64,000 nucleotides of DNA from Pelobacter propionicus DSM 2379. Its GTDB lineage: Bacteria > Desulfobacterota > Desulfuromonadia > Geobacterales > Pseudopelobacteraceae. Position numbers and translations under genes: made by a program. Below, piece by piece: positions 6,975 to 29,329 of this stretch. The stretch is taken from NCBI RefSeq assembly GCF_000015045.1, contig NC_008609.1, positions 3,014,001 to 3,078,000 on the forward strand. Reading direction: 5' to 3'. Under the pieces are notes generated by a model, which was not told where the DNA came from, made no database searches, and saw nothing but the letters and a program-made list of their open reading frames with translations. Position 1 is the stretch's first letter; the number at the start of each line of letters is the position of its first letter.

Positions 6975-7001
6975 TATATCTGGTAAATAAACTTGTCAAA
7001 C

Positions 7002-7745
7002 TCACTCCTTATTTTTAAGGCGACGAGCAATCAGGGAAATGGAAATTTTTCGACGCTTCTTCTCAACAAACCACATAAAACGCTGAATCAACGTTTTTTT
7101 CGTCCGATACGTCCACCGAATTCGGCCGACAATAGTGCTTTCCTGGGAAGGGTCTTCCTCGACAACCGTTGGAAACAATACCGGAATGCACAAACCATGC
7201 TTCCAGTAGGTGTCAAAAACATCGTCAACCGGCTCTCTGGGAACGGATATTTTTGAACGCAAACGTTTTGCGCCGGAATAACTCACAAGATAGCCTTGGG
7301 TCCCGCTGGGCATTTTTTTGGGTAGCACCAGACGCGCGTTCGAAGCAAGAGTTGCAACCGGAACAGCGCCATGTTCAGGCATGAGTAAGTCCGGCTTCAG
7401 AGCCGAAAGCCGCACCGCGTCGAACGGCATACCCAATGCAATGATTTCAGCAACAACAGCACTGAAGTTTGAACCGAGAATAACATCATCCTCAAGAATG
7501 ACCGCGTGGGACAATCCTCGCTCGACGACCGTATTCCATGCCGCCACATGGGACAGGTAGCACCCCTTTTCACCGGGCGACAACCTAGGTTCCGTACCGC
7601 GCGGTAGCGCGTCCATATCCAGGCTCGCTCCATCAACGGCCGTGAGAAACTCAGCCTCCAGGCCAAGGGCACAAAGCCGCTGACACATGATGTGACGACG
7701 CTGCGCAGCGCGCTCCAGGTTGAGAATGAATAGTTTCGGTATCAT
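7002..7745 (-). CDS. Glycosyltransferase family 25 (LPS-type)
   Basis: About 247 residues from the ATG at 7745; a TTG four codons upstream (7757) is also possible. The protein opens with IPKLFILNLERAAQRR, the family-25 signature, then ETxP-type GEKGCYLSHVAAW and HAVILEDDVI, the DxD-like donor/metal site. Family 25 members add galactose or glucose to lipooligosaccharide cores. Size and motif order are normal. It is the last gene of the minus-strand glycan run and follows the 7782-8615 gene by 36 bases, so both are probably on one transcript. Confidence 0.8.
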   Translation of the reverse strand: MIPKLFILNLERAAQRRHIMCQRLCALGLEAEFLTAVDGASLDMDALPRGTEPRLSPGEKGCYLSHVAAWNTVVERGLSHAVILEDDVILGSNFSAVVAEIIALGMPFDAVRLSALKPDLLMPEHGAVPVATLASNARLVLPKKMPSGTQGYLVSYSGAKRLRSKISVPREPVDDVFDTYWKHGLCIPVLFPTVVEEDPSQESTIVGRIRWTYRTKKTLIQRFMWFVEKKRRKISISLIARRLKNKE

Positions 7746-7781
7746 CGGTTGCAGCAATCTCCGATTGGCATGATCGCAACG

Positions 7782-8615
7782 TCACTGCCAGATGCCGTAC
7801 TTCTCTCTCAGGAAGTCAACAGCCAGACGGTCCGCGTCTCCCCGGCCTACTCCCGATACGGAAAAATCCCTGAGCGCGGCGATCTTGTCGCAGACGCCGT
7901 CATGATAGACGGGGCGCGGTATGCCGTTGGCCCATACCCTGTATCCGTTCACCAGCGCCATCCCCGATAGCCAGACATCATCAACGGTCCAGACAATATC
8001 CGGAATATTCCAGACATCCCCATGGAACGCCTGCGGCGGAACCAGCACACCGAGAAAACCCTCAAAGACATCGGCATAGCCGGGACAATCGTATATTCTG
8101 CGGGGAACCTGATGGTAGAGTTTTTTCAGGGTCAATCGTTTCACCAGTCGGTACCAAAAGGAACGCCCCCCATCCTTGGCCAGTCGCGCACGGGGATGAT
8201 GCAGTTCTTTTCGTGCAATACCGAAGCGTTCGTCAATGTTCCACGCCCGTTCGCAGATGATGTCTCTCGGCCTCTCCAGTCGCGTCCGCGCAAGGCGTGA
8301 GATCCACTGCCTGTCCTGCAGACGGTCATCGTCGCACAGCAGAAGATCCACATCATGGGAGTACCACTTGCTGGTTGCCGGTAAAATTTTGGTAGCTGGA
8401 CCCAGGTCTTCCTCGACGTCGATTACCTTGACCCAGTCAGGAAGGGGGGGGAGCGCCGGCCGTGGCCCGGGAAAGCGGCGATATGATTTCGGAAGGTAGA
8501 GTTCGACCAGGTCAGGCGCAACTGTCTGACGCTCGAGAGCAGCGAACCTGCGGGGAAGATTTTCGTAACGTGGGGGGATGCTGGTAAGCGTGACAATGAT
8601 GGGCTTGCGTTTCAA
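7782..8615 (-). CDS. Putative glycosyltransferase (GT-A-like), surface-glycan locus
   Basis: About 277 residues. I chose the TTG at 8615 because a strong GGAGGAG lies 9 bases before it; the longer frame starting at 8633 would begin inside this ribosome site. The N-terminus PIIVTLTSIPPRYENL and the pair VDLLLCDDDRL look like the first strand and the metal-binding DDD of GT-A glycosyltransferases. Late motifs include WTVDDVWLSG. Proteins with this layout are usually annotated only as glycosyltransferase-like. Its neighbours are a GT25 gene downstream and the disrupted GT4 gene upstream, supporting a role in the same glycan. A 21-base perfect palindrome sits just upstream at 8638-8658. Confidence 0.55.
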   Translation of the reverse strand: MKRKPIIVTLTSIPPRYENLPRRFAALERQTVAPDLVELYLPKSYRRFPGPRPALPPLPDWVKVIDVEEDLGPATKILPATSKWYSHDVDLLLCDDDRLQDRQWISRLARTRLERPRDIICERAWNIDERFGIARKELHHPRARLAKDGGRSFWYRLVKRLTLKKLYHQVPRRIYDCPGYADVFEGFLGVLVPPQAFHGDVWNIPDIVWTVDDVWLSGMALVNGYRVWANGIPRPVYHDGVCDKIAALRDFSVSGVGRGDADRLAVDFLREKYGIWQ

Positions 8616-8833: not shown

Positions 8834-9718
8834 TTATACATCACGACAGATCTTGCCTGTGAGTTCCCGGTACTGCCATGCAGCCCGTTCAATGGAAAAA
8901 TCGCGTGACCTCGCACGGAGCGATTCCTTGTCGCATCCGGATTCGAAACAACGCAGCATGGCTTGAGCCAGGCTGTTCTCATCCCTGACCGGAACCAGGG
9001 CGCCATACCGGCCATGATCGAGGATTTCGGCCGGGCCGCTGGGACAATCGGTGCTGACAACCGGACAACCGCAGGCAAGGGCCTCGGCTATCACCATGGA
9101 CATCCCCTCGTAAATGGAAGAGACCACCATCAGGGATGCACGGGCCATGTACTGGTAGGGGTTGTCCACGAAGCCGGGCATCAGCAGATCGTCGGAAAGC
9201 CCCAACTCTCCGGCCAGTTCTTCCAGACTGCGTCGCAGCTTGCCTTCTCCCAGGATCAGCAGCCGCAATGGACGTTCCCTGCGAGCGATGGCAAAGGCCC
9301 TGAACAGGGTACTGAAGTCCTTCTGTGGCTTGAACCCACCCACAGCCAGAATAACCGGCGGCGCGTTATCGCAAAACCAGGGATGATCAAAAGGTTCCGC
9401 GGCCTTCTTCAACAGGTCTGGAGATACTACCGGATTGTAAATTGTCTGGACCGCCTCACGCCTCATACCCAGAACCTGGGCAAGATCATCGGCCACACCA
9501 TGGGAAACCGCTACCAGGGCATGAGCACGGGGGTAGAAGCGCCGGGCAACCTCCACCTGAGCCTTGATGCGCCGTCGCTTGCTATTGGCAACTTCAACGG
9601 AAAGGTTGTTATGCACCGTGGCTATGATAGGAACGTCATTTCCGGCCAGTGACGAAGCCATGATAGCCACCGCATTGGGATAATCCATGGCCGAGATCAG
9701 CACATCCGGACGCTCTAG
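8834..9718 (-). pseudogene. GT4 glycosyltransferase, 3' part (gene split by an IS)
   Basis: C-terminal 294 codons of a family-4 (GT-B) glycosyltransferase. It contains PVILAVGGFKPQKDF at the start of the donor-binding lobe and SSIYEGMSMVIAEALACGCPVV, the E-x7-E signature. The open frame extends to 9763, but the bases beyond 9718 belong to the inserted element. The missing N-terminal lobe is at 11396-11750. Joining position 11396 to 9714 with one CTAG gives an uninterrupted 411-residue protein (…TRYLR/LERPDV…). As it stands the enzyme is very likely inactive, unless an IS-borne promoter lets the C-terminal lobe be made alone, which would still lack the acceptor lobe. Confidence 0.85.
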
Positions 9719-11395
9719 GAGTCTGTCGGGCTTGACCTCAGGGGCGCCCTCTTTTGTGGCCAAGCCGATTAAAAAAGTTCCGTATGTGTTCGTCTTCCCA
9801 CCGGCAACCTGGTTAATTCAGCCCTTTCAGCGATGACTGCGGTTATTACAGGCTGATTTTCGCTATTTCTCATTCTATCCGGCCAAGACATGCAGCCGTT
9901 TGATGTTGTAGGCCATGCAGACGAGGTTCCATTCGCCTTTTACTGCTTCAAAGCCACGAAGAAGAAAGCTTCTGAATCCCATGACCGCCTTGATGATGCC
10001 GAAGACCGGTTCCGAGGTGACTTTTCGCTGGGCGTAGATCGCCTTGCCGGAAGGTGTCTTCAGGCGATGCTTCATTCTGGCCACGGAATCGGCATCTTCG
10101 GGTAACGGCGGCGGTTCGGCAAAGCGCTCCATCAGTGGCACGTTGTGACTCTGCCGGTCTACGGCAATGTAGGGAGTTATCCCGTTCTCCTCACAGGCAG
10201 TTACATTGGTTTCGCTGAAGTAGCCACTGTCAGCTACCAGATCGGTTGCCTTGCCAAGCTTCTCAGGCAGCGCCGCCAGGTTCTCCAGGGTCGGTGTCAG
10301 CTCCTGTTTGTCATTGGGATTCTGGGTAACATGGGCCGAAACGATGAGCTTTGATGCTGTATCCACACCGGCCTGGGCGTTGTAAGTCTGCTCGAATCCG
10401 CCACCGGAGGTCGGCATGATCCGCGACTCTTCATCGGTCAGATTGACCTGATCTTTGGCAGTGGGGCCGGATTTGGGCGGTTTCGGCTCTTTCCCCTTGG
10501 CCTTCTTGCCCGTTGCCTGCTCCTTCTTGGCCCGTTCGGCGACTTTCTTCTCATAAGCGGCCTGTTCACGAGCATGGCGCTCAGCGGCTCGTTTTTCGAT
10601 CTCGACCTTGGCTGCGGCAATGGCGGAAAGACGCTTTTCCCGACGTTCCAGTTCTTCGGGGATGTTCATGCCGTCCGGAATATCGGCACGGTCCGCTGCC
10701 TCGGCCTTTTTGAGCAGTTCGCCAACCTCAGCCTTGATCTGCTCTTCAAGCTTGCAGGCATGCTCATAGCTCAGCGCCTTGTGCTTGGAGGCGTTCGCCT
10801 TGATTTTGCTGCCATCCAAACTAACGTTGCCCAGTTTCAGCACCTCCATCTGATGAGCGATCAGCAGAATCTGGGCAAACAGCTTGTTCAGTTGCGGCAG
10901 AAAACGCCGGCGGAAGGTGGCAATGGTATCGTGGTCAGGATGACTGTTTGCCGCTATGAACCGGAATGCCACGGAGTCGTAGGTGCTGCGCTCAAGCTTC
11001 CGGCTGGAGAATACGCCTGTCGCATAACCGTAAAACAACAATGCTACCAGCATCTCAGGGTTATAGGGCTGCGAGCCTCGGCCGGCATAGGTAGCTTTCA
11101 AAGAGCGCAGGTCGAGCTGTTCGACAATTTCGACCACAAACCGGGCCAAGTGCTTTTCTGGTAGCCAATCCTGCAGCGATGGCGGGAGCAGATAGGGTGT
11201 TTCCCGGTCAACTTCAATAAACTTTGATTTCATAGTCAACCCCGATACCTAACCAGTTGATATTACCGGACAAATATACGGGATACACCAAGAAAACGCA
11301 AGCTAAAGCTGACGACTTATTCAATAAATACAGCAGGTTAACCAATTGAAAACGCCCTGGAGATGACGGCTGAATGCGTTAAGCCCGACAGACTC
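9719..11395 (-). mobile_element. IS1182-family insertion sequence (1677 bp)
   Basis: Terminal inverted repeats are perfect for 15 bases (GAGTCTGTCGGGCTT at 9719-9733 and its complement at 11381-11395). The flanking CTAG at 9715-9718 and 11396-11399 is a 4-base target duplication; because it is palindromic it could equally be read as part of 19-base repeats. A single transposase gene fills most of the element. Perfect ends, an intact transposase and an exact target duplication suggest a fairly recent insertion. The element interrupts a GT4 gene. Confidence 0.9.
9875..11233 (-). CDS. IS1182-family transposase
   Basis: 452 residues from the ATG at 11233; a TTG two codons earlier is less likely. 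The N-terminal ~90 residues are the InsH/DUF772-type domain (LPEKHLARFVVEIVEQLD … YNPEMLVALLFYGYATG). The catalytic DDE triad can be placed at SLDGSKIKANAS (first D), LVADSGYFSE (second D) and TSEPVFGIIKAVMG (E). A long charged, Lys/Glu/Ala-rich insert of roughly 100 residues (about 170-265), probably coiled coil, lies between the first and second catalytic segments, as is usual in this family. No frameshift or internal stop is seen, so the enzyme is probably functional. Gaps inside the IS (9734-9874 and 11234-11380) contain no other gene. Confidence 0.92.
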   Translation of the reverse strand: MKSKFIEVDRETPYLLPPSLQDWLPEKHLARFVVEIVEQLDLRSLKATYAGRGSQPYNPEMLVALLFYGYATGVFSSRKLERSTYDSVAFRFIAANSHPDHDTIATFRRRFLPQLNKLFAQILLIAHQMEVLKLGNVSLDGSKIKANASKHKALSYEHACKLEEQIKAEVGELLKKAEAADRADIPDGMNIPEELERREKRLSAIAAAKVEIEKRAAERHAREQAAYEKKVAERAKKEQATGKKAKGKEPKPPKSGPTAKDQVNLTDEESRIMPTSGGGFEQTYNAQAGVDTASKLIVSAHVTQNPNDKQELTPTLENLAALPEKLGKATDLVADSGYFSETNVTACEENGITPYIAVDRQSHNVPLMERFAEPPPLPEDADSVARMKHRLKTPSGKAIYAQRKVTSEPVFGIIKAVMGFRSFLLRGFEAVKGEWNLVCMAYNIKRLHVLAG

Positions 11396-11750
11396 CTAGG
11401 CGCAGATAACGGGTCAACGGGTGGAGAGCACCAAGAACGAAGTGAGGTTTGGGAGCAAAAACCATGCGCGCCCAGAACCATGCATCAGGTCCCAGACGGG
11501 GCAGACAGAGCAGAGATTGTCGCGCCGACCGGACCTTCAGGTCCACCACCCGGACGGCTGGCGGTATTTCGTCCAGAAAATGCCCTGTCCTGCGAGCCAT
11601 GACCATATCTACCTGTTGTCCCTGGTCAATCAGCCCCTGCGCCAGGTTGAGCATGGCGCGCTCTGCACCGCCGCTCCCCTGCATGGAGCGCATGAAGATG
11701 GCGATTTTTCTGGAATGTGACGTCATGGACTGGACTTTAGACTTTGTCAT
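11396..11750 (-). pseudogene. GT4 glycosyltransferase, 5' part (gene split by an IS)
   Basis: The first ~118 codons of the interrupted glycosyltransferase. After the ATG the protein reads IAIFMRSMQGSGGAERAMLNLAQGL, the glycine-rich loop and helix at the start of the GT4 acceptor lobe. At the insertion point the frame passes into the element and ends seven codons later (…LRLGVCRA). The matching 3' part is at 8834-9718. A short alternative start exists at M9 (MTSHSRKIAIF). It follows the ELM1-like gene (stop at 11877) by 126 bases that contain nothing recognisable. Confidence 0.85.
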
Positions 11751-13148: not shown

Positions 13149-14333
13149 CTACAGGCAGGAACCATACTCGCGGCGTACGGTACAGGGAACCAAGCCGTCA
13201 ACATCTCGTAGGATCTCGCGTAAAATCAATGGTTCCTGAAGATCACTCAAAGTCCATTGGTAGGCGAACAGCATGGCCAGATACTGGTCCCTGAGCTCGG
13301 CGCAATTACTTTGTTTCCCGCCCGCGCGGAGAAAATCCTGCAATTTTCCGGAAAAGGGGCTTTCCACGGCAGGCCCGGCCTGCATCTCACCAAGAGCCAG
13401 AACGGGTCGCTGCCACAGCAGTGCCTCGTGCAGAATATTGGAATTTATGGCAATCACGCCGCGGCAGTTGACATGGCGCACGAGATCGATCGTACGCGGT
13501 CCGTGACCGGCGTAGATCATTGTGTTGCAGGAATTAACCCTATATCGATTTCGATGAAAATCCCCGGGATGTTGGGCAAAGATGATCCGACAGGAAGAGG
13601 GAACGGATTCCACATAATCGATCAGGGCTTGACCGAGTTGCGTGCTGAACTTTCCCTGCTGGATACTCCCGCCGAGTGATGCCCCGGACTTCAAAAAAAC
13701 CAAGTCGTTCCCGGTCTTGGGTTGCTGCGCCACCAGAAAAAAGGGTTGTTCCACATAGTGGGCATGTATGACGGGCACATCGCCAAAGCCGGCGACCAGG
13801 TTCCTCTTCAGTCGCTTCAGCTTTTCAAATCCGCCAACGAGACGGACATACTCCTTGCTACTCTCGAATGTGACGTGACTGCGACAGTTACACCCCTGGG
13901 AGGAAAGTTGATAGGTGGATCGCGGTAACCAGCCATGTTCTGCGTAGATGACCTTCCTGCCGGAGATCTCTTTCCCGTCTGACGATTTGAGAGCATCGGA
14001 TTCCAATTTGACATCAACAGTTTCGCGGGACAATTTGGCAACGGAAAACAGGCCACGGCGACGACTCATGTCACGCGGAAGGCGGTAATCCCCCCACTGT
14101 AGAATGACCGACGCCGTATCCTCAAAAAGCTTTGAGTGATGCTTGACTGTGTGAAAAATGGAGGAGTACAGGAGGTGCCTGAAAAAAGCGCCCCTGGACA
14201 GGTAGTACGTAGGGACAAGCCCCTTCGAGACTTTGGGCAAACGCGAAAAATCGATCGTTTCCAGCCTTGGCACACCCCTTATCCGAGGAATGTTATCTCC
14301 CAGTGCGCGTAGAAAGGCTGAGAAAAACCTCAT
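13149..14333 (-). CDS. Capsule-polysaccharide-type glycosyltransferase (KpsC/KpsS-like), tentative
   Basis: 394 residues from the ATG at 14333, which follows GGGGGGCTCCTG; an ATG at 14372 would overlap the upstream gene. The block VIYAEHGWLPRSTYQLSSQGCN resembles the E-x-GWLP … G segment of capsule-synthesis proteins such as KpsC/KpsS (Kdo transferases for capsule linkers), and SRIIFAQHPGDFHRNR plus GVIAINSNILHEALLWQRPVLALG fits the second GT-B lobe with its donor site. Identity is not certain; it could be any GT-B transferase of that superfamily. It starts 13 bases after the serine palmitoyltransferase stop, so it may be cotranscribed with the sphingolipid cluster. Confidence 0.45.
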   Translation of the reverse strand: MRFFSAFLRALGDNIPRIRGVPRLETIDFSRLPKVSKGLVPTYYLSRGAFFRHLLYSSIFHTVKHHSKLFEDTASVILQWGDYRLPRDMSRRRGLFSVAKLSRETVDVKLESDALKSSDGKEISGRKVIYAEHGWLPRSTYQLSSQGCNCRSHVTFESSKEYVRLVGGFEKLKRLKRNLVAGFGDVPVIHAHYVEQPFFLVAQQPKTGNDLVFLKSGASLGGSIQQGKFSTQLGQALIDYVESVPSSCRIIFAQHPGDFHRNRYRVNSCNTMIYAGHGPRTIDLVRHVNCRGVIAINSNILHEALLWQRPVLALGEMQAGPAVESPFSGKLQDFLRAGGKQSNCAELRDQYLAMLFAYQWTLSDLQEPLILREILRDVDGLVPCTVRREYGSCL

Positions 14334-14346: not shown

Positions 14347-15546
14347 TTACACAGCCCTGGGAAGAGTCCCAACGGTTTTCAGGGTTGCGAAGGCTTCTAT
14401 GATAACATCGATCTGCTCCGGCGTATGGGCCGCGCCGACGCTGCAGCGCAAAAGACTGGTGCCGTCGGGCGCCGCCGGCGGAAGCACCAGATTGACGTAG
14501 ACTCCCTGGTCGAGCATCCACTTCCAGGCCAGCAGGGTTTCCTCTTTTGATCCCATGTAGACAGCCACCACCGGTGTCGGTTCGGGACCGAGCCTGAAGC
14601 CCAGCTTGCCCAGCCCTTCATAGAGCTGGCGGGCGTTGGCCCAGAGACGGTCGCGCAGGTCGGTGCCCGCTTCCAGCAGCCTGAGCGCCTGGCGCACCGA
14701 GGCGATGGTGGCGGGAGACGGTGAGGCGGTAAAGACGTAGGAGCGGCTGGCATAGCGCACCAGGTCCAGTTCGGGGTGATTGCTGACGCAGAAGCCGCCG
14801 ATGGTCCCCAGGCTCTTGCTGAAGGTACCGACGATGAAATCCACCTGATCCAGGCAGCCGGCCTCCTCCACCAGCCCCCTCCCCTTCTTTCCCAGCACAC
14901 CCAGGGAATGGGCCTCATCGACCATCAGCCAGAAGCCGTACTGTTTCTTCAGGGCGACGATTTCCGCCAGGGGCGCCCGGTCGCCCAGCATGCTGTAGAT
15001 CCCCTCGATGATCACCAGGGCATCCTTCGTCCGCTCCCCCAGGCGGCGGAGCCGCTTCTCCAGATCGGCCGCGTTGTTGTGGCGGAAGCGGATGATGTCG
15101 GCGCCGCTCATGCGGCAGCCGTCGTAGATGCTGGCATGACTGTCGGCATCCAGCAGGATCAGGTCCCCCGGACCGGTCAGGGTGGAGATGGCTCCCAGAT
15201 TGGCCACGAATCCGGTGGAGAAGACGATGGCCGAGGCATAGCCGTAGAAAGCGGCCAGCTCCCGCTCCAGGGCGCGATGGCCGGAAAAGGTGCCGTTGGC
15301 CATGCGCGAACCGGTGGTTCCGGTCCCCTCGGCATGGGTTGCCGTGCAGGCAGCCTCGATACAGCGGGGATCGAAGGTCAGGCCCAGGTAGTTGTTAGTT
15401 CCCGCCAGCAGTGTTTCGCGGCCATTGATGCGCGCCTCGGTGGGCGACAGGATTTCCTCGATCTCCACGTTGAAGGGGTCGATGCCCAACTCTTCCAGCG
15501 CCGCCCGGCCCTGGGCGATGGTAGCCAGTTTGTCAAAGAGTCCCAT
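14347..15546 (-). CDS. spt: Serine palmitoyltransferase (alpha-oxoamine synthase family)
   Basis: 399 residues. PLP-dependent condensation of serine with a long-chain acyl thioester to give 3-ketosphinganine, the first step of sphingolipid synthesis. Visible family features are TNNYLGLTFDP (~51), GTGTTGSRMANG (~75-85), DADSHASIYDG with His137 stacking on PLP, DEAHSLGV with Asp210, and GTFSKSLG with the PLP lysine Lys244. Family relatives are BioF, Kbl, CqsA and HemA, but the N-terminal MGLFDK, the LSPTEA and ADSHASIYDG blocks and the adjacent ACP, reductase, acyl-AMP ligase and GNAT genes point to the bacterial serine palmitoyltransferase. The ACP gene ends two bases before this start region, implying tight coupling. 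Cytosolic enzyme. Confidence 0.82.
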   Translation of the reverse strand: MGLFDKLATIAQGRAALEELGIDPFNVEIEEILSPTEARINGRETLLAGTNNYLGLTFDPRCIEAACTATHAEGTGTTGSRMANGTFSGHRALERELAAFYGYASAIVFSTGFVANLGAISTLTGPGDLILLDADSHASIYDGCRMSGADIIRFRHNNAADLEKRLRRLGERTKDALVIIEGIYSMLGDRAPLAEIVALKKQYGFWLMVDEAHSLGVLGKKGRGLVEEAGCLDQVDFIVGTFSKSLGTIGGFCVSNHPELDLVRYASRSYVFTASPSPATIASVRQALRLLEAGTDLRDRLWANARQLYEGLGKLGFRLGPEPTPVVAVYMGSKEETLLAWKWMLDQGVYVNLVLPPAAPDGTSLLRCSVGAAHTPEQIDVIIEAFATLKTVGTLPRAV

Positions 15547-15548
15547 AC

Positions 15549-15806
15549 CTACCCCGCGATTTCCTGTTGAATGCGCAGCACGAAATCCTTCACCGTCCTG
15601 ATACCGGAGAGTTCGTTCAAGGGAAAGGAAAAATCGAAGCTATCCTCAACTTCTTCAACTATCTCCATCACCTTGAGCGAGTCGAGCTGCAGGTCATTGA
15701 CCAGTTCGGTCTCCTCGCCGATGGTGACCGGAGATTCGAGAAAACGCCCCAGGATGCTCTTCAGCTGTTCATAGATTTCCGTATAGTCTGCTGTGGCCAT
15801 CGTCAT
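15549..15806 (-). CDS. Acyl carrier protein of the sphingolipid cluster
   Basis: 85 residues from the ATG at 15806 (AAGGAAAGC directly upstream; an ATG two codons later is equally possible). LQLDSLKVMEI carries the phosphopantetheine serine at residue 43, within an acidic helical protein typical of ACPs. It stands between serine palmitoyltransferase and the reductase, the same arrangement as in Caulobacter, where a dedicated ACP is charged by an acyl-ACP synthetase and feeds serine palmitoyltransferase. The same role is inferred here, with the acyl-AMP ligase at 16831-18585 as the loading enzyme. Confidence 0.85.
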   Translation of the reverse strand: MTMATADYTEIYEQLKSILGRFLESPVTIGEETELVNDLQLDSLKVMEIVEEVEDSFDFSFPLNELSGIRTVKDFVLRIQQEIAG

Positions 15807-15870
15807 GCTTTCCTTGTCGTGAATTTCCTGGCCTGCTTCGCCCGCCGGATTCGGGGTTTGAACCGTTCCA

Positions 15871-16827
15871 TCATCCCAGGGTGCGCCGCAATCCCTCGGC
15901 CAGCCCCACCCGGGGGCTCCAGTTGACTGCCCGGCGAAAATCCTCATCATGGCAGACCCAGTCCTGGTGGCAGAGCTCCCTGACCTTGCCCGGCGTGAGC
16001 ATCGGCCGATAGCCGAAGAACCGTGATGCAGGGATGTTCAGGCGCGCCGCCAGCTCCAGAAGCGGGCGCGGAATGTCGACGCGGAGGACGGAGCGCCGGT
16101 AAAGCTCCCTGGCGACCCCCCTGATCTCCTCCCAGCTGTAGCCGCCTGCCTTGCCGTCATGCGGTTCAAAGCAACCGTTCAGGCCGCTGCCGTTCATGAG
16201 CCAGCACAGGACGGCTTCGGCAAGGTCGCTGACGTAGATCAGCGAGAGGCGCCCCGCACCGCTCCCCGGAACGAACAGGATTCCCCGGCGCATCCACTGC
16301 AGCAGGGGGAGCATCTCCCGGTCTCCGGGACCGTACACCGCCGGCGGTCGCAGGATCGTCCAGTCAAGCCCCTGGGCAGCGCTGCGCAGGGCATCCTCGC
16401 CCCGCCGCTTGCTGGCGGCATAGTCGGACAGTTCGGGCGACCTGGCGGCCAGGGATGAGAACAGGAGCAACCGCGGATGACCGGCCGACTCACGGGCTGC
16501 CGCCACGATGCGCTCCACTCCGCTGACATTGGCCGGCTCAAAGTCGGCCGGGCAGGCGCCGCGAACGGAACCGGCGCAGTGGATAACGGCCGAGGCACCC
16601 TCCACCAGCCGTCGCAGGCTCTCCCGGTCCCCCAGTTCGCCATGGATCCAGGTCAACCCTTTTGCTTCGAAACAGGATGCCAGGGAAGCCGGCCGCACCA
16701 GCGCCCTGACGCGCACCCGATCCTCCAGCAGACGGCGGATGATGGCACCGCCGACGAACCCGGTCCCTCCGGTAAGGGCTACGGTCAGCCCAGGGGATAA
16801 AGGAACTGCCCCCTCCGGCTCCCCCAT
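15871..16827 (-). CDS. NAD(P)-dependent epimerase/reductase, candidate 3-ketosphinganine reductase (CerR-like)
   Basis: 318 residues. Extended short-chain dehydrogenase fold: VALTGGTGFVGGAIIRRLL binds the cofactor, LLLFSSLAARS and YAASKRRGEDAL give the catalytic Ser/Tyr/Lys, and RPPAVYGPGDREM closes the active site. In Caulobacter the corresponding gene, in the same position relative to spt and its ACP, encodes CerR, which reduces the 3-keto group of the sphingoid intermediate. By synteny I assign the same role; sequence alone would only say NAD-dependent epimerase/dehydratase. The stop lies about 64 bases before the ACP start, and the acyl-AMP ligase stop is three bases upstream of this ATG. 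Confidence 0.7.
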   Translation of the reverse strand: MGEPEGAVPLSPGLTVALTGGTGFVGGAIIRRLLEDRVRVRALVRPASLASCFEAKGLTWIHGELGDRESLRRLVEGASAVIHCAGSVRGACPADFEPANVSGVERIVAAARESAGHPRLLLFSSLAARSPELSDYAASKRRGEDALRSAAQGLDWTILRPPAVYGPGDREMLPLLQWMRRGILFVPGSGAGRLSLIYVSDLAEAVLCWLMNGSGLNGCFEPHDGKAGGYSWEEIRGVARELYRRSVLRVDIPRPLLELAARLNIPASRFFGYRPMLTPGKVRELCHQDWVCHDEDFRRAVNWSPRVGLAEGLRRTLG

Positions 16828-16830
16828 GGC

Positions 16831-18585
16831 TCAGTCTTGTCCCGCACGGGCTGGGGAGGAGGCGTCGCCGATGCGCCGCAGGTAATCCGCCTTGGCCATG
16901 GAGCGCGAGATCTTCCCCGACGATGTCTGGGGCAGGGTATGGGGGGCAACCAGCTCGACCAGGCAGTCGACGCCGAACTCCTCACGGACCCGGCCTCGGA
17001 GCAGCTCCACCAGCCGGCAACGCTCGGTCTCGTCAAAATGGCGGCACTGCACCACCAGCACCACCTGTTCCTCACCTCCCTGGCCGGGAATGGAAAAGGC
17101 GGCAGCGTCCCGGGAACGGATTTCCGGCAACTGTTCGACGACGAATTCGATATCCTGGGGCCAGATATTGCGGCCATTGATGATGATCAGGTCCTTCATG
17201 CGGCCGGTGATGACCACCTGCCCCCCGGCCAGATAGGCCAGGTCGCCCGTATTGAGCCACCCATCCGGGCAAAGCACCTCCCGGGTGGTCTCCGGGGCTC
17301 CCAGGTATTCGCGCATGACGCTGGGACCGCGCACGTGCAACACACCGCAGCACCGTTCGGGGAGCGGCATGCCATGCTCGTCGCGGATCTCGATCTCATG
17401 GCCGGGGATCACCGAACCGCACAGGACGAGTTCCTTCACCTCTGCCCCGCTGGCCCCCTCTTCAAGGGGAATGGCGCGTCCGCTGTTGGTGAGCGCTTCG
17501 GCATCGATCCGGTCGATCTCCAGCCCCCTGCCCAAGGGGGCGAAACTGATTGCCAGGGAACACTCGGCCATGCCGTAGGAGGCCACATAGGCTGTGGAAC
17601 TGAAACCGGCCGGCGCCAGCAGTTTGCCGAAGTTCTCCAGGATATCCGCCCGTATCGGCTCGGCCCCGGTTCCGGCGATGCGCCAGGAACTGAGATCGTA
17701 CTGTTCGATCTCGGCCGGCCGGAGACGCCGCGCGCACAGCGCGTAGCCAAAGGTTGGACTGTAGGAGATGGTGGCCCGGTTTTTGGAGATCAGCGCCGGC
17801 CAGAGGCGCGGCCGCATGGCGAAATCGCGGGTGCTCAGGTAATCGATGGAGAGCTGGCAGGCCATGGGGGCAAGCATGAAACCGACCAGTCCCATATCGT
17901 GGTAGAAGGGGAGCCACGAGGTGGCCCGGTCGCCCGGCTGGACGGCTAGGCCATGGCTGATGATGCAGGCCAGGTTGGCCATGATCGACTTCTGGGTGAT
18001 CACCACGCCGCGGGGAAAGCGGGTGCTGCCGGAAGTGTACTGCAGATAGGCAACATCCTCGGGGTCCGGCGCCTGCAACATCTGGTCGGCCTCAGGAAGC
18101 GCGTCGAAGCAGTCGGGTATCCCCACGTGTTTCAGGTCGAGCCCCTCGGCAGCCTTGGACAGGAAGGCAAAGAAGGAGCGGGAAGACATGGCGGCCCTAG
18201 CTCCGCAGGACTCCACCAGTTTTCGCAGGTTATCGATAATGGCCTGGCGCCCCCCCAGATGAACCGCGGCGGGCAGAGGCACGGGAACCAACCCGGCATA
18301 CTGGCAGGCGAAGAAGAAACGCACGAAATCAGCATCGGTCTCGGCGACCAGGGCCATGCGATCCCCCCGCGACAGGCCGAGCCCCACGAGCTTGCGGGCA
18401 AGGGAGCGGGCGCTGTCACGCATCTGGGAATAGGGAAGCGTGACTGCCAGGCTTCCCTTGCCGGAGTAGAAATTGAACCCGGTCCTGCCTTCGGCGGCAT
18501 AGTCGAGAGCTTCGGGCAGGCTGTTGAAGTCGCCGCGGCGCAGGGCGATGCTGTTATTAGTGGGTGTCTTTTTGAGTGTATGCAT
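16831..18585 (-). CDS. Fatty acyl-AMP ligase / acyl-ACP synthetase
   Basis: 584 residues. ANL-superfamily adenylating enzyme: YLQYTSGSTRFPRGV (P-loop, A3), SWLPFYHDMGLVG (A4, typical of fatty acyl-AMP ligases), and WLNTGDLAYLAGGQVVITGRMKDLIIINGRNIWPQDIE (A7-A8, with the NGRN-x-WPQDIE form of this subgroup). Its C-terminal lysine region (LPQTSSGKISRSM) is present. It activates a fatty acid as acyl-AMP and, in this context, would load the neighbouring ACP so that serine palmitoyltransferase receives acyl-ACP, as described for the Caulobacter ceramide pathway. Length is normal for FAALs. The ATG is well inside the gap to the HIT gene (30 bases). Confidence 0.82.
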   Translation of the reverse strand: MHTLKKTPTNNSIALRRGDFNSLPEALDYAAEGRTGFNFYSGKGSLAVTLPYSQMRDSARSLARKLVGLGLSRGDRMALVAETDADFVRFFFACQYAGLVPVPLPAAVHLGGRQAIIDNLRKLVESCGARAAMSSRSFFAFLSKAAEGLDLKHVGIPDCFDALPEADQMLQAPDPEDVAYLQYTSGSTRFPRGVVITQKSIMANLACIISHGLAVQPGDRATSWLPFYHDMGLVGFMLAPMACQLSIDYLSTRDFAMRPRLWPALISKNRATISYSPTFGYALCARRLRPAEIEQYDLSSWRIAGTGAEPIRADILENFGKLLAPAGFSSTAYVASYGMAECSLAISFAPLGRGLEIDRIDAEALTNSGRAIPLEEGASGAEVKELVLCGSVIPGHEIEIRDEHGMPLPERCCGVLHVRGPSVMREYLGAPETTREVLCPDGWLNTGDLAYLAGGQVVITGRMKDLIIINGRNIWPQDIEFVVEQLPEIRSRDAAAFSIPGQGGEEQVVLVVQCRHFDETERCRLVELLRGRVREEFGVDCLVELVAPHTLPQTSSGKISRSMAKADYLRRIGDASSPARAGQD

Positions 18586-18615
18586 AGTATCGGATACTTT
18601 GGGGGAGCAGTGATG

Positions 18616-19047
18616 TTAGTCCCAGTGTGAGAGTATGAGCTGCCTGATGGCCTGGCGGGTTTCATCGCCCACGTCATTGGCACAGCTCAGATCAGGCTGG
18701 CCGGGCCAGTGCGGATCCAGGAATACAGCCCCGCCACAAAGGCGTTCGTCGGCATAGCGGGGAATGACGTGAAAATGAACATCGGGGTCGACCATCATCA
18801 GCATCAGATAGTTGATTTTGTCATAGGCAAAGGCCCTCTTGAGCGAGCGTTCGATGTGTCCGCTCACCTCCCGCAGTTCGGCAAAGGCCTGCTGGCTGAG
18901 CGCGGAGAATTCCCTGACCGGTTCCGTGCAGACCAGCACCAGGGAGCCCAGGGTTACCTGGGCGGGCCGGAGCAGAACGCTCCAGCAGGGGCCAGCCTGG
19001 ATGAGGGTGTCGGGGTAGCCGAATTTTTCGAGGGTCGCATTACTCAT
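18616..19047 (-). CDS. HIT-family nucleotide hydrolase/transferase-like protein
   Basis: 143 residues. The end carries DVHFHVIPRYAD, the histidine-triad motif, but the first of the three histidines is Asp; the middle His, which is the nucleophile in HIT enzymes, and the last His are kept. Substrates in the family are nucleoside phosphoramidates, dinucleoside polyphosphates or nucleotidyl-linked compounds. The ATG overlaps the stop of the upstream nucleotidyltransferase by four bases (ATGA), indicating translational coupling and a shared pathway. A role in turning over a CDP- or NDP-linked head-group intermediate is speculation. Confidence 0.75.
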   Translation of the reverse strand: MSNATLEKFGYPDTLIQAGPCWSVLLRPAQVTLGSLVLVCTEPVREFSALSQQAFAELREVSGHIERSLKRAFAYDKINYLMLMMVDPDVHFHVIPRYADERLCGGAVFLDPHWPGQPDLSCANDVGDETRQAIRQLILSHWD

Positions 19048-19859
19048 GGCTGTTTCCTCTGAGCCTGTCGGGCAAGGATGCTCTCCACAAGCCGCAAGTC
19101 TTCCAGCTTGTCCACATCCACGGCCGCTTCCGCGTCAGGCATCCAGACCGCGCCGGCGCGGGCGTCCATCAGGGCGGAGAAGCGGTCCAATCCCTGTTCC
19201 AGGGTCAGACGTCCGCACAGATAGCGCAGGACGGACAGGAGGCCCAGTGTCCTGACGATCTTCAGCGGATGCTTGCGCTGCTCTTCCACCCGCCTCCAGA
19301 AGATGGCGGCATTCCTGGCCCGGGGGGTGAGAAAAGCGAACAGGTTGCAGCCGCAATACCCTCCGTCAGCCAGACGGGTTATGGTCCGTCGCCCCTCGGG
19401 AAAGGCGGCCATCACCATGTCAGCCCGGGCCAGTCCGGCAACAACGTCACAGCCGCTTTCAGCCGCCCGGCCGCAGAAATGATCGACCATGGGGGGAGTC
19501 AGCAAGGCGTGGTCGGCCGTGGTCACCAGGGCGGGCTGGTCGGCCGGCACAGAGGCCAAGGCTGCCCGTGCGCTCAGGCTGGGTGATGATTCGTTCTCCA
19601 CCCAGCTGACCCTTCCGTCGGCCACCAGACCGTCGAGCTCCGCCGAACTCCCCAGGAGGCGTGACGAGCAGCCACAGAGGATGCGCGGACCGATAATCGG
19701 CGATGCATCCAGCGCATCCAGCACACGCAGAACCATGGGACGTCCGGCCACCGGCACCAGGGCCTTGCAGCCGACCCCCGATGCACTGGCCACCGGGTCG
19801 TCCGGTCCGCGGTCACCGGCAAGAACGATTGCGGCAAATTTTCCGGAAAAGCAGCTCAT
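19044..19859 (-). CDS. MobA-like nucleotidyltransferase
   Basis: 271 residues from the ATG at 19859, seven bases after the acyltransferase stop; a long upstream extension of the frame overlaps that gene and looks non-coding. FAAIVLAGDRG and CKALVPVAGRPMVLRVLDAL give the nucleotide-binding loop and conserved Lys of GT-A-like nucleotidyltransferases, and LVTTADHALLTPPMVD the metal-site Asp. Resembles MobA/IspD-type cytidylyl- or guanylyltransferases, but neighbours show no molybdenum-cofactor genes. Together with the second nucleotidyltransferase at 21036 it may activate a head-group precursor; substrate not readable. Confidence 0.65.
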   Translation of the reverse strand: MSCFSGKFAAIVLAGDRGPDDPVASASGVGCKALVPVAGRPMVLRVLDALDASPIIGPRILCGCSSRLLGSSAELDGLVADGRVSWVENESSPSLSARAALASVPADQPALVTTADHALLTPPMVDHFCGRAAESGCDVVAGLARADMVMAAFPEGRRTITRLADGGYCGCNLFAFLTPRARNAAIFWRRVEEQRKHPLKIVRTLGLLSVLRYLCGRLTLEQGLDRFSALMDARAGAVWMPDAEAAVDVDKLEDLRLVESILARQAQRKQP

Positions 19860-19866
19860 GTCCTGG

Positions 19867-21021
19867 TCAACACCCCTGCAGCTCTTTCTGGTAGATGCGG
19901 TAGCGCTTGTAAGGCTTTCCGCCGATGGACTCGATGATGTTGCGCATCCCCCGGTTGCCCTCCAGGATCCAGGACATCTCCACGTCTTCCATGCCACGGC
20001 CAAGGCCCGAGGTCTGCAGGGAGGTTATCATCATCAGGGCCAGGGTGGCTCCCAGGCGCCCCCCCTGAAAGCGTTGCCGCACCCCCATCAGCGGCACGCG
20101 GCCGCTCTTCACGCCGCTGACCTTGAGACGCCAGAGCAGCTTCAGCCAGCCCAGGGGAAACAGCCTGCCGTCCAGATCCCTGATGGCCTCGTTCAGGTTG
20201 GGAAAGAGCACCATCATGGCCGCCGGTTCGCCGTCAACCTCGGCGATGCGTACGTAGTCCAGGGGCACCAGGAGTCTCAGGTTCCTGCCCAGCTCGGTAA
20301 ACTCCTCGTCGGTGAAGGGCACGAAACCCCAGTTGTTGGCCCAGGCATCCTCGAAGAGATCCTTGATGATCGCCAGGTCCCCGGAGAACGTCTCGCGACT
20401 GGGGGTGCGCAGGCGCACCCTGCCGGCGACCCGAGCGGTCAGAGCATCCAAGTGGCGCGGCGCGGGGAAATCGCATCTGATGCGATAGGCCAGAAGATTC
20501 TGGGCCGCACTGAAACCCTGCTCTTCGATGCGGCCGGCATAGTACGGCAGGCTATGGCCCATCATGATCATGGGAGGCGTATCAAAGCCTTCCACCAACA
20601 GCCCCAGCTCGTCGTTGATGGAGAGGTTGAACGGCCCCATGACCCGGCGCATGCCCTGCTCCATCAGCCAGTTCTGGGCGGCATCGAACAGCGCCTGAAA
20701 GAGTTCCCGGTCATCCACCGCCTCGATCATGCCGAAGAAGCCGGTGCGGTCGTCGTAACGCCGCAGATGCAGATGGTCAACCTGCGCGCTGATGCGCCCC
20801 ACGGTCCGCGTGCCGCGCCGGGCGATCCAGGATTGATAGGTCGCGTGCCGGAAATAGGGGTTGCGTTTCGACAGGTGCTCCCGGCGCTCGAGAAGCAACG
20901 GCGGAACCCAGTTGGGATCGTCCGCGTACAGGGACCAGGGCACGCGCAGGAAGCTGCGCAGTTCTTCATTGCCCCGCACCGCCACGATCTCCAGCGGCGG
21001 CTGGCCGTTATTTCCCGCCAT
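19867..21021 (-). CDS. GNAT-fold acyltransferase, candidate bacterial ceramide synthase (bCerS-like)
   Basis: About 384 residues from the ATG at 21021, which has a strong GGAGG five bases before it; an ATG at 21039 overlaps the upstream stop as ATGA and is an alternative. The N-terminus ELRSFLRVPWSLYADDPNWVPPLLLER is a well-known block of large GNAT-like proteins annotated as hypothetical or N-acetyltransferase. The C-terminal half has the long acyl-transferase fold with EMSWILEGNRGMRNIIESIGG. In Caulobacter the N-acylation of the sphingoid base is done by a GNAT-like protein of this kind (bCerS). With spt, ACP, CerR-like and acyl-AMP ligase genes downstream in one operon, ceramide synthase is the best guess. 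Cytoplasmic, possibly membrane-associated. Confidence 0.6.
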   Translation of the reverse strand: MAGNNGQPPLEIVAVRGNEELRSFLRVPWSLYADDPNWVPPLLLERREHLSKRNPYFRHATYQSWIARRGTRTVGRISAQVDHLHLRRYDDRTGFFGMIEAVDDRELFQALFDAAQNWLMEQGMRRVMGPFNLSINDELGLLVEGFDTPPMIMMGHSLPYYAGRIEEQGFSAAQNLLAYRIRCDFPAPRHLDALTARVAGRVRLRTPSRETFSGDLAIIKDLFEDAWANNWGFVPFTDEEFTELGRNLRLLVPLDYVRIAEVDGEPAAMMVLFPNLNEAIRDLDGRLFPLGWLKLLWRLKVSGVKSGRVPLMGVRQRFQGGRLGATLALMMITSLQTSGLGRGMEDVEMSWILEGNRGMRNIIESIGGKPYKRYRIYQKELQGC

Positions 21022-21035
21022 CGCCACCTCCAGAC

Positions 21036-21764
21036 TCATCCGGCGATGCCGCGCACCACTTCCTCGGCACGTTTCAAATCCTCGGGACAGTCGACCTCGC
21101 CCCATGCCAGCCCCTCGATGCAGCAGGTCCAGACCGGCGTCTGCTGCGCCAACTCGTCGATCACGGACAGATACCAGCGCTTCAGGGAGACCTGGTCGCG
21201 CAGGAGCTGCTCCACGGTGCGCCGGAACAGGTCGGCCCCTTCCCCGCGGAACAGCAGCATGCCGATGGATTCGGCGTCAACCTGGTCGACGAGCAGATTC
21301 TTGCCGATGCGCACCAGACGCTCGCCGTCCAGAATCACCTTCATATCATCGCCATCGTACGTGTCCTTGCGATCAACGGTCACCGTGATCGGACGGGGCG
21401 CCGAGGCGAGCAGTTTTTCAAGCACCGCAGCCCGGAACATCGTGTCGCCGTTGAGCAGGATGAAATCATCGGTCATTTCCGAGCGGGCGATCCAGCAGCT
21501 GCCCAGGTTATCGGCCACCGCGTAAAACGGGTTGAACAGGGTGCGGATAACGCCCCTGCCATAGCGCTCTTCCAAGAGTGCTTCCACAGTATCAGCTGCA
21601 TAGCCGAGCACGACACTGATGTCTTTGACACCGCATTTGAGCAGTTCATCGACCTGCCATTCGATCATCGACTGGCCATGAATGGCAACGGCGCACTTGG
21701 GTCGCTCGGCGGTCAGGGGAAGCAGACGCTTGCCCTGACCCGCGGAGAGAATGATGGCTTTCAT
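21036..21764 (-). CDS. LicC-like NTP transferase (phosphocholine/sugar-phosphate nucleotidyltransferase family)
   Basis: 242 residues from the ATG at 21764, preceded by GGAGACC; the upstream frame to 21824 is unsupported. MKAIILSAGQGKRLLPLT is the nucleotide-binding loop with the conserved GxGxR, followed by RPKCAV (Lys) and FILLNGDTMF (metal Asp). DNLGSCWIARSEM is a block I associate with phosphocholine cytidylyltransferase-like proteins such as LicC. It is the first gene of the minus-strand sphingolipid operon, its stop overlapping or abutting the acyltransferase start. A role in making an activated polar head group for ceramide is inference from position. Confidence 0.65.
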   Translation of the reverse strand: MKAIILSAGQGKRLLPLTAERPKCAVAIHGQSMIEWQVDELLKCGVKDISVVLGYAADTVEALLEERYGRGVIRTLFNPFYAVADNLGSCWIARSEMTDDFILLNGDTMFRAAVLEKLLASAPRPITVTVDRKDTYDGDDMKVILDGERLVRIGKNLLVDQVDAESIGMLLFRGEGADLFRRTVEQLLRDQVSLKRWYLSVIDELAQQTPVWTCCIEGLAWGEVDCPEDLKRAEEVVRGIAG

Positions 21765-24435: not shown

Positions 24436-25449
24436 TCAGCAGATGCGGGGGAGCTGTTCGCCGGCCAGCATCTCAACCGCCCGGGTCCCCCCCGACACCG
24501 TGTCGATCTCCAGGCGCCCGCGGTCGTCCTCGCCGGTCACCTCGCCGATGATGGCGGCTTCGCGCCCCAGGGGATGGGAGCGCATCCGCTCAAGCAGGGC
24601 GTCCGCCGCCTGGGGCGCTGCCACCACCAGGATTTTCCCCTCGTTGGCCACGTAGAGCGGATCCAGGCCGAGTATGGCGCAGACCCCCTTGACCGCGCCG
24701 TTGTAGGGAAGCGCTCTTTCCTGCAGGGTGATGCCGACCCGGGACTGGAGGGCGATCTCCTTGAGGGTGGTGGCAACCCCGCCGCGGGTCGGATCGCGCA
24801 GGACATGCACCGCGTCTCCCTCCTTGAGGATCTCCTCCACCAGACCGTTGAGCGCCGCGCAGTCGCTCCTGATGTCGCTCTCCAGGTCGAGCCCCTCCCT
24901 CTTGGCCATGACCGCAATGCCGTGGTCACCGATGGCGCCGTTGATCAGCACCCGGTCGCCAGGCCGGGCACAGTTGCCGCCAATGGCCAGATCATGCTCG
25001 ATGACCCCCACGCCGGAGGTATTGATGAATATCCGGTCTGCCTTCCCCCGGGGAACAACCTTGGTATCACCGGTCACGATAGCCACCCCCGCCCCGTCCG
25101 CGGCGGCGCGCATGGAGTCCAGGATCTCCTTCAGCTCTGCCCTGCTGAACCCTTCCTCCATGATCAGCCCCACACTCATGTAGAGCGGTCGCGCCCCCAT
25201 CATGGCGAGGTCGTTGATCGTACCGTTCACCGCCAGGCAGCCGATATTGCCACCCGGGAAGAAGAGCGGATCAACCACGTAGGAATCGGTGGTAAAGGCG
25301 AAGCGCTGTCCATTATGGGTCACCACCGCCGCGTCGTTCTGACCCGCGGGCGGTATGCCCGACAGGGTGGGGATGACAAGGTCCGAGAGCAGCTGGTGGG
25401 AGAGTTTCCCGCCGCTGCCGTGACCCAGTAGAATGAGGTCGTTGTCCAC
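24436..25449 (-). CDS. hypE: Hydrogenase maturation protein HypE
   Basis: 337 residues from a GTG at 25449 with AGGAG seven bases before it; the open frame continues far upstream over the hypD 3' end but that part is a shadow. HypE dehydrates the carbamoyl group received from HypF into a thiocyanate, the source of the active-site CN ligands. DLILLGHGSGGK opens the PurM-like ATP-binding domain, DSYVVDPLFFPGGNIG and TGDTKVVPRG follow, and the protein ends in PRIC, the C-terminal Cys that carries the carbamoyl/cyano group. Last gene of hypABFCDE. Confidence 0.96.
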   Translation of the reverse strand: MDNDLILLGHGSGGKLSHQLLSDLVIPTLSGIPPAGQNDAAVVTHNGQRFAFTTDSYVVDPLFFPGGNIGCLAVNGTINDLAMMGARPLYMSVGLIMEEGFSRAELKEILDSMRAAADGAGVAIVTGDTKVVPRGKADRIFINTSGVGVIEHDLAIGGNCARPGDRVLINGAIGDHGIAVMAKREGLDLESDIRSDCAALNGLVEEILKEGDAVHVLRDPTRGGVATTLKEIALQSRVGITLQERALPYNGAVKGVCAILGLDPLYVANEGKILVVAAPQAADALLERMRSHPLGREAAIIGEVTGEDDRGRLEIDTVSGGTRAVEMLAGEQLPRIC

Positions 25450-25495
25450 GTATCGCTCCTGATCCGGCCAGGCCGGAACTAAAAATAGTTTTCGC

Positions 25496-26587
25496 CTATC
25501 TGCCGTACTTGTACGCCGCGGCGCAGGTCCCTTCGCTGGACACCATGCAGGCCCCAACGGGTGATTCCGGGGTGCAGGCTCGGTCGAAGAGGGGACAGTC
25601 GAAGGGAGACACCTTCCCCCTGAGGATATCGCCGCAGCGGCACCCTTGGTGCTCCCGGGTCTCCTCCACGGAAACCGGCAGGACTTTTTCCGCGTCATAG
25701 GCGGCATAGTCGGCTGCGATTTCCAGGCCACTGCCCGGAATGACGCCGATCCCGCGCCACTCGGCATCACAGACGCTGAACACCTGGGCCAGCACAGACT
25801 GGGCCTTGCAGTTACCTTCCCAGGTCACCACCCTGCTGTACTGGTTTTCCACCCGGCTTTTCCCCTCCACCACCTGCCGTACCAGCATCTCCACTCCCTG
25901 CATGACATCGGCCGGCTCGAAACCGGTCACAACGCAGGGAACGCCGCGCTGCTCTGCCAGTCCGCGGAAGGCGTTGGCGCCGATGATGGCGCTCACATGG
26001 GCGGGGCAGATATAGCCGTCGATCTTCAGTTCCGGGTCGCTGGAGAGTAGCTCCATGGGCAAGGGAATGGTCTTGTGGGCCGCCAGCACCAGATAGTTGG
26101 CAAGCCCGTCCCCAGTGGCGGCCAGGATGCTGGCGGCAATGGCGGGCGCCGTTGTCTCGAAGCCGACCCCCAGAAAGACGACCCTTTTACAGGGATTCTT
26201 CCTGGCGATGGCCACAGCGTCCAGCGGCGAGTAGACAATCCTGACATCCGCGCCCCTGGCGCGCTCCTCCATCAGTGACGAACTGGAACCGGGAACCCGC
26301 AGCATGTCACCGAAGGTGGTGATGATGGTGTCGGAAAGACGGCTAATGGCTATTGCCCGGTCGATGTAGCGGTTGGGGGTGACGCAGACCGGACAGCCGG
26401 GCCCCGAGATGAGCCGCACCCCTTCCGGAAGCAGGCTGCGGATGCCGTACTGGTAGATGGACATGGTGTGGGTGCCGCAGACCTCCATGAAAGCCATCGG
26501 TTCCGGGCGCTGCTCAGACAGCTTCCTGATTTGTGCCGCGTAGCCGAGAACCACATCCCGGTCGCGGAATTCATCCATATAATTCAT
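25496..26587 (-). CDS. hypD: Hydrogenase maturation protein HypD
   Basis: 363 residues. Scaffold on which, with HypC, the Fe(CN)2CO unit of [NiFe]-hydrogenase is built. Signature cysteine motifs are present: CGTHTMSIYQYG near residue 38, SGPGCPVCVTP near 65-75, and the C-terminal CRCGDILRGKVSPFDCPLF plus further Cys that bind the [4Fe-4S] cluster. Length is normal. The gene starts 74 bases after hypC and ends 46 bases before the hypE GTG. Confidence 0.97.
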   Translation of the reverse strand: MNYMDEFRDRDVVLGYAAQIRKLSEQRPEPMAFMEVCGTHTMSIYQYGIRSLLPEGVRLISGPGCPVCVTPNRYIDRAIAISRLSDTIITTFGDMLRVPGSSSSLMEERARGADVRIVYSPLDAVAIARKNPCKRVVFLGVGFETTAPAIAASILAATGDGLANYLVLAAHKTIPLPMELLSSDPELKIDGYICPAHVSAIIGANAFRGLAEQRGVPCVVTGFEPADVMQGVEMLVRQVVEGKSRVENQYSRVVTWEGNCKAQSVLAQVFSVCDAEWRGIGVIPGSGLEIAADYAAYDAEKVLPVSVEETREHQGCRCGDILRGKVSPFDCPLFDRACTPESPVGACMVSSEGTCAAAYKYGR

Positions 26588-26661
26588 GACAACCTCATAT
26601 CTTCCTGCGCTGGACCAACCAGCCGGCCGGTTCCCAAAGCAGACACCCCGTGATCAGCGAC

Positions 26662-26898
26662 TCAGGCCGAAGCTGTTGCGGACTCGGGTTTCATCTCTTT
26701 CATCAACTCCAGGGTGATCAGCGCCTCCTTCTCATCCATCCTGGAAATGACGAAACCTGCATGGACGACCACATAGTCTCCCACCCCGATCTCCTCGCCA
26801 ATGATCATAAGGCTTGCCTCACGCTTGACCCCGTCGATCTCGGCCACGATGGTATCGCCATCAATGCTTAACACCCGCATCGGTATTGCCAGACACAT
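26662..26898 (-). CDS. hypC: Hydrogenase maturation chaperone HypC
   Basis: 78 residues. MCLAIPMRV is the diagnostic N-terminus: after Met removal Cys2 holds the iron being assembled and the protein then carries it to the large-subunit precursor. GDYVVVHAGFVISRMDEKEA is the conserved C-terminal helix region. Sole HypC-type gene in the window, so it would serve both hydrogenase copies. Lies between hypF (68 bases upstream) and hypD. Confidence 0.97.
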   Translation of the reverse strand: MCLAIPMRVLSIDGDTIVAEIDGVKREASLMIIGEEIGVGDYVVVHAGFVISRMDEKEALITLELMKEMKPESATASA

Positions 26899-26966
26899 AA
26901 CTGTTCACCATATCCTGTCGTCAAAAATAGGAAAGAGACCGACCTGGTCCCTCCCGGTCACGCAAC

Positions 26967-29309: not shown

Positions 29310-29329
29310 CACTCGCTTTCGTTCGCTGC

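Follow-up and report, generated by a model that had tools for sequence, protein, structure and literature searches.

A ceramide gene run with predicted phosphoglycerate head-group functions in the anaerobe Pelobacter propionicus

What kind of lipid would an anaerobic bacterium make with a tight run of genes resembling the sphingolipid genes of Caulobacter, and would the pathway end at ceramide? The question is raised by a 64,000-nucleotide stretch of the Pelobacter propionicus DSM 2379 genome (positions 3014001–3078000 of a 4.0 Mb contig, in a genome of 4.24 Mb in total; hereafter the window), in which eight intact open reading frames (ORFs) occupy 21764–14347 of the minus strand, one after another. 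On the homologies described below, we have very high confidence that ceramide would be made by the route of Caulobacter and E. coli B, and high confidence that the operon would both make ceramide and pass it on to a head-group pathway of the ceramide phosphoglycerate type. Phosphoglycerate itself is the likely head group, and sphingolipids are probably present in the envelope of the host. In 5' to 3' order, the run contains:

21036–21764, minus strand: CpgD-like/LicC-like CTP-dependent nucleotidyltransferase (P0008), predicted counterpart of CC_1152; PF00483/PF12804, structure match 1jyk, CpgD residue spacing
19867–21021, minus strand: bCerS/YghO-type tandem GNAT N-acyltransferase (CerS), predicted counterpart of CC_1154; identity to YghO, tree, AlphaFold model
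19044–19859, minus strand: MobA/CofC-like nucleotidyltransferase, predicted counterpart of CC_1153; PF12804, synteny
18616–19047, minus strand: HIT-domain protein; PF01230, similarity to the HIT gene of a Roseomonas mucosa cluster
16831–18585, minus strand: fatty acyl-AMP ligase, AasR-type acyl-ACP synthetase; NF006624, E. coli B counterpart
15871–16827, minus strand: CerR-like NAD-dependent reductase of the extended short-chain dehydrogenase/reductase (SDR) type; PF01370, TGGTGFVG and YAASK motifs, E. coli B counterpart
15549–15806, minus strand: specialised acyl carrier protein (ACP), AcpR; PF00550, DSL attachment motif, similarity to E. coli B AcpR
14347–15546, minus strand: serine palmitoyltransferase (SPT); NF047599, similarity to E. 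coli B SPT, tree

Most of these genes are separated by 2–30 bases or overlap by 4 bases, with 64–70 bases ahead of the ACP gene, and a single transcript spanning cerS through spt is likely. Alternative ATG codons exist for CerS at 21039, which would overlap the stop of the upstream gene, and for AcpR at 15800, while a consensus scan upstream of 21764, of a kind that says little, found no promoter. Chance is excluded as the origin of the run, since the SPT and the ligase score above their NCBIfam cut-offs and the same gene set is found in relatives of several phyla. A preliminary description of this DNA, made from its letters and ORFs, had proposed a five-gene ceramide pathway with the ligase, reductase, ACP and synthase ordered as in Caulobacter. 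All five genes are indeed found intact on the minus strand, in the predicted order and with an arrangement (aasR-cerR-acpR-spt) identical to that of Caulobacter; the count has to be enlarged, as the unit holds eight genes and adds a HIT gene and two nucleotidyltransferase genes. The G+C content of the operon (0.60–0.66) is that of most of the window, so that base composition gives no sign of a recent foreign origin.

The identity of the synthase is central to the pathway. It reaches 639 bits against the SPT equivalog model NF047599 (cut-off 500) and stays under the cut-offs of the NCBIfam models for BioF and Kbl, and its best PDB matches are the Sphingomonas SPTs with 435 bits, as compared to at most 229 bits for Kbl, BioF and cysteate acyltransferase (200 bits for cysteate acyltransferase 28eh). 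It is 58% identical to the SPT of E. coli B and falls into a 27-row clade with a Shimodaira–Hasegawa-like approximate likelihood ratio (SH-aLRT) of 100, which includes Sphingomonas paucimobilis 2jg2 and E. coli B SPT. The host's own paralogue and E. coli BioF and Kbl fall apart from this clade, the latter two being outgroups on long branches. In addition, alignment with 2jg2 shows that the pyridoxal phosphate lysine and the active-site motifs SHAS, DEAH, FSKS and LLRCS are kept. A grouping with BioF or Kbl had been named beforehand as the outcome that would speak against the pathway; both the tree and NF047599 place the protein with the SPTs instead, and a BioF/Kbl or ALAS identity was rejected by family scores, PDB matches and tree.

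The acyl-AMP ligase scores 804 bits against NF006624 (cut-off 600) and is 47% identical to its E. coli B counterpart, with 44% for the CerR-like protein and 39% for the ACP. The predicted AcpR and AasR genes are found beside spt, as in the Rhodobacterial-type SPT system, and SPT, AcpR and AasR of E. coli B have been assayed (PMC9386255).

The remaining ceramide gene encodes a GNAT protein, which had been described as bCerS-like from the outset. It has no Pfam match and is 50% identical to YghO of E. coli B; with a homologue from Pseudomonas veronii, the identity is 51%. The yghO gene (ECD_02850) is listed as the orthologue of Caulobacter CC_1154 (PMC9386255). In a CerS tree the host protein falls inside the YghO clade, and its AlphaFold model (mean predicted local distance difference test, pLDDT, 87) matches the tandem GNAT acetyltransferases 2wpw and 5kf1. 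Homologues occur in 7 of 57 related genomes, and in each of the seven an SPT homologue is found no more than a few kb away. The type described here accounts for three of them (the host, G016 and G009) and a distant second type for the other four. Identity to YghO, fold, tree and co-occurrence with SPT bear out the earlier assignment, and the prediction of an N-acyltransferase of the bCerS/YghO type is well supported. A generic GNAT paralogue was considered and rejected, as the gene is the sole copy in the host genome and the relatives carry CerS only clustered with spt.

The second SPT–CerS type is found in other members of the same family, G020, G001, G027 and G032 (L042, L043, L044, L146), which include a genus mate of the host; a CerR-like gene accompanies it in G020, G001 and G027, and the CerS-like gene is present twice in G020 and G032. 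In the stretches compared, none of the four showed a matching ligase, ACP or nucleotidyltransferase. Some clusters of Nitrospirota and Alphaproteobacteria carry a fatty-acid-hydroxylase-family gene directly ahead of CerS (L056:9079-9816, PF04116; L153:9237-10004, annotated as a sterol desaturase), a possible ceramide hydroxylase that was not seen in the operon of the host.

Whether the product goes beyond plain ceramide depends on the other genes of the run and on a second host cluster, situated to the left of the window and 17–26 kb from the ceramide operon:

C3:3001881-3010902: LptG2, LptF2, metallophosphoesterase, CDP-alcohol transferase (CpgA), diacylglycerol (DAG)-kinase-family protein (CpgB), Tam41-like protein (CpgC), TPR-type protein, MsbA-like ABC transporter

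The domains of this cluster (PF09139, PF01066, PF00781, PF00149 and PF03739) are those published for CC_1161, CC_1159, CC_1160, CC_1158 and CC_1156/CC_1155, respectively (PMC11324152); the equivalence of CC and CCNA gene names was derived from the spt and cerS numbering in published papers. The genome therefore holds homologues of a ceramide kinase, a CDP-DAG-synthase-like enzyme, a CDP-alcohol transferase and a phosphoesterase, as well as the two nucleotidyltransferases, so that counterparts are found for all 11 genes needed in Caulobacter for ceramide diphosphoglycerate (CPG2), a lipid of its outer membrane with negative charge, five for ceramide and six for CPG2. The host appears to be a Geobacter-like anaerobe of the Desulfobacterota; a 16S search gave no rRNA match, but it also failed to detect five of 14 control genomes. 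The closest named match is the metagenome-assembled genome Geobacter sp. UBA5735, in which the head-group cluster adjoins the ceramide operon; identities to its proteins are 73% for CpgC, 69% for CpgA, 64% for CpgB, 62% for the phosphoesterase and 68–72% for LptF2/LptG2. Furthermore, genomes with the head-group cluster have four LptF/LptG genes, as compared to two in the genus mate without it (G001), where CpgC and CpgA homologues were not found. In G016 (G016:C18:19057-20025; L126, L140), the CpgC homologue contains one internal TGA in an otherwise conserved frame and is 70% identical to the UBA5735 protein.

Within the operon, P0008 has the CTP:phosphocholine cytidylyltransferase 1jyk as its closest solved structure, and its presumed counterpart CC_1152 has been described under the name CpgD as a CTP:phosphoglycerate cytidylyltransferase (PMC12275187). 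When the published CpgD residues (PMC13228409) were matched to P0008 by spacing, by eye and allowing indels of 1–2 residues rather than by sequence alignment, counterparts were found for Arg16, Lys26, Asn90, Asn110-Gly111-Asp112, Met147, Lys161, Ser170 and Trp201, while the position of Thr93 is occupied by Ser. Among 289 sampled Alphaproteobacteria, orthologues of the CpgD-like protein show about 50% identity and are set apart from the next group near 30%; CerS lies nearby in only some of the 12 orthologues inspected, and two of the sampled genomes (L191 and L193) carry most of the gene set. The second nucleotidyltransferase is of the MobA/CofC type and directly follows CerS in most relatives. 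In Caulobacter, CC_1153 beside cerS has been described as CofC-like and required for CPG2. Both nucleotidyltransferases match head-group genes, and the other genes for head group and transport are close to the left edge of the window, so that a lipid of the ceramide phosphoglycerate type is a more probable product than plain ceramide.

From gene content, order, homology, predicted fold and co-occurrence, we infer the following enzymatic steps, head group and transport route. The acyl-AMP ligase would charge the dedicated ACP with a fatty acid, and SPT would join the acyl-ACP with serine to form 3-ketosphinganine, which would then be N-acylated by the GNAT protein and reduced at its keto group by the SDR to give dihydroceramide, the order of these two steps being debated in the literature. 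The CpgB homologue may phosphorylate ceramide and the Tam41-like CpgC homologue activate the resulting ceramide-1-phosphate with CTP, while CDP-glycerate would come from the CpgD-like enzyme. The last steps towards the mono- and diphosphoglycerate head group would fall to the CDP-alcohol transferase (CpgA), the CofC-like enzyme and the phosphoesterase, and the second LptF/LptG pair, together with the MsbA-like ABC protein, could deliver the product to the outer membrane.

Several points weigh against this scheme: orthology to CC_1152–CC_1161 was deduced from the E. coli B proteins, from domains and gene order, and from the spacing of residues; enzymes of the CpgD-like cytidylyltransferase family also use other phospho-alcohols; and the head-group genes, at their distance of 17–26 kb, are not co-transcribed with the ceramide genes in the host. 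An unlikely competitor is a ceramide with another head group, for example a sugar, phosphoinositol or a group resembling phosphocholine, made by a CpgD-like enzyme with a different substrate. The family includes enzymes for phosphocholine, inositol-1-phosphate and phosphoglutamine (PMC12275187), the best structural match of P0008 is the phosphocholine enzyme, and glycosyltransferase genes lie near the operon. However, the reported glycerate contacts of CpgD (Asn110, Met147, Lys161 and Ser170) have spacing counterparts not only in P0008 but also in its orthologues, the NGD and DDM motifs are absent from three of the more distant family members checked, and the whole Cpg gene set has counterparts in the genome.

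Glycosyltransferase genes within a few kb and the presence of two nucleotidyltransferases could also suggest a unit for glycosphingolipids or surface glycans, with these two enzymes serving the glycan genes downstream, but both nucleotidyltransferases travel with CerS and Cpg genes in other phyla, with glycan genes outside those clusters, which makes this explanation highly improbable. Equally little credence is given to a synthase that uses alanine, glycine or cysteate to form 1-deoxyceramides or sulfonolipids. Although 1-deoxyceramides and sulfono-1-deoxyceramides of the Black Sea have been attributed to Desulfobacterota and/or Bacteroidota (PMC11334938), the host enzyme exceeds the SPT equivalog cut-off and matches Sphingomonas SPT far better than cysteate acyltransferase, and the genome has a homologue of ceramide kinase, an enzyme that needs the 1-hydroxyl. 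Phosphoglycerate on a serine-derived ceramide is thus the reading that we prefer.

Two relatives carry nearly the same set, and named contigs of Desulfobacterota and Nitrospirota carry large parts of it. Further recurrent genes lie next to the operon, or next to its CerS part, in contigs that include those of Geobacter UBA5735, Desulforhabdus TSK and Nitrospirales, and G016 also has the set. Desulforhabdus sp. TSK carries at least the portion with cerS, nucleotidyltransferase, cpg and lptFG2 genes. The cerS gene lies on the same strand and ahead of the ligase in the host, G016, G009, UBA5735, UBA2174 and the Olavius Delta 1 symbiont. For G009, the stretches read showed neither a HIT nor a phosphoesterase gene. 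A contig labelled Verrucomicrobiota (L051) has a cluster mostly 57–72% identical to that of the window, and may be a binning error.

The HIT protein is 52% identical to the one encoded among the phosphosphingolipid genes of Roseomonas mucosa, and sphingolipid clusters with such a gene are known from Desulfobacterota, Nitrospirota, Gammaproteobacteria and Alphaproteobacteria. It is missing from other clusters and is therefore accessory or replaceable. Its recurrence in several phyla allows the tentative and rather doubtful idea that it performs an unrecognised step of phosphosphingolipid synthesis, such as the cleavage of a nucleotidylated intermediate or the clearing of acyl-AMP, and that anaerobes in the phyla concerned have an outer leaflet of anionic sphingolipid served by its own Lpt pair.

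Downstream of spt, the operon had been described as running on into genes for surface glycans. Glycan genes do adjoin it, but only as neighbours in this genome, and the conservation of the unit does not include them, since G016 and G009 have ABC (flippase-like) and TPR genes after SPT instead. The first gene in this direction is:

13149–14333, minus strand: possible ninth gene of the transcript, familyless, 13 bases after SPT

It has no Pfam or NCBIfam match, and a 36% match in L045 only. An ELM1-type gene follows after 126 bases, and beyond it a GT4 glycosyltransferase is split into 11379–11750 and 8834–9763 by an insertion sequence (9715–11399) with a DDE transposase (9875–11239, minus strand) and 22-base terminal inverted repeats (9715–9736 and 11378–11399). 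Across the glycosyltransferase genes at 4001–8000 of the window, the G+C content falls from the roughly 0.60 that prevails in the window to 0.42–0.48, which suggests a separate origin of this stretch. On the other side, inspection of translations at 24436–32742 points to HypA–HypF-like maturation genes and NiFe-hydrogenase/complex I-like subunits, which fits an anaerobic hydrogen metaboliser.

A sphingolipid potential of Desulfobacterota had already been reported from metagenomes (PMC11334938), and the novelty here appears modest. It consists of an established pathway in a group for which it had not been described, cerS apparently in the spt operon, and the HIT gene. The head-group part is reported in the literature examined only from Alpha-, Beta- and Gammaproteobacteria, and the gene set for an anionic phosphosphingolipid is now extended to Nitrospirota and to anaerobic Desulfobacterota. 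This offers a concrete lipid prediction for environmental Geobacter relatives, ceramide mono- and diphosphoglycerate, as well as a compact version of the gene set with every ceramide gene beside two head-group enzymes, and flags the HIT gene and the second LptF/LptG pair as recurrent companions of sphingolipid genes.

Compared with known systems, the second SPT–CerR–CerS type of G001, G020 and G027 also clusters SPT, CerR-like and CerS-like genes, but its SPT and CerS are only 42–43% and 34–38% identical to those of the host, and no matching ligase, ACP or nucleotidyltransferase was found in the stretches compared. The yghO and spt operon of E. coli B/BL21 encodes the same five ceramide proteins with 39–58% identity, whereas its yghO is transcribed divergently to the remaining genes and the stretch read has no nucleotidyltransferase or HIT gene. 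Plasmid p1-AD2 of Roseomonas mucosa (L153) holds HIT, LptF/LptG, CerS, CofC-like, phosphoesterase, CDP-alcohol transferase, DAG-kinase and SPT genes together, in another gene order and strand pattern and with a sterol-desaturase-family gene. The closest parallel in content is CC_1168–CC_1152 of Caulobacter crescentus, for which the host has counterparts of the five ceramide genes, the six CPG2 genes and the second LptF/LptG pair, and with which it shares the aasR-to-spt gene order and a CofC-like gene after cerS. In the host, however, the ligase comes after a HIT gene, cpgABC and lptFG2 lie 17–26 kb away, and cerS, reported as always being in a different operon from spt (PMC11324152), apparently shares one operon with spt and both nucleotidyltransferase genes.

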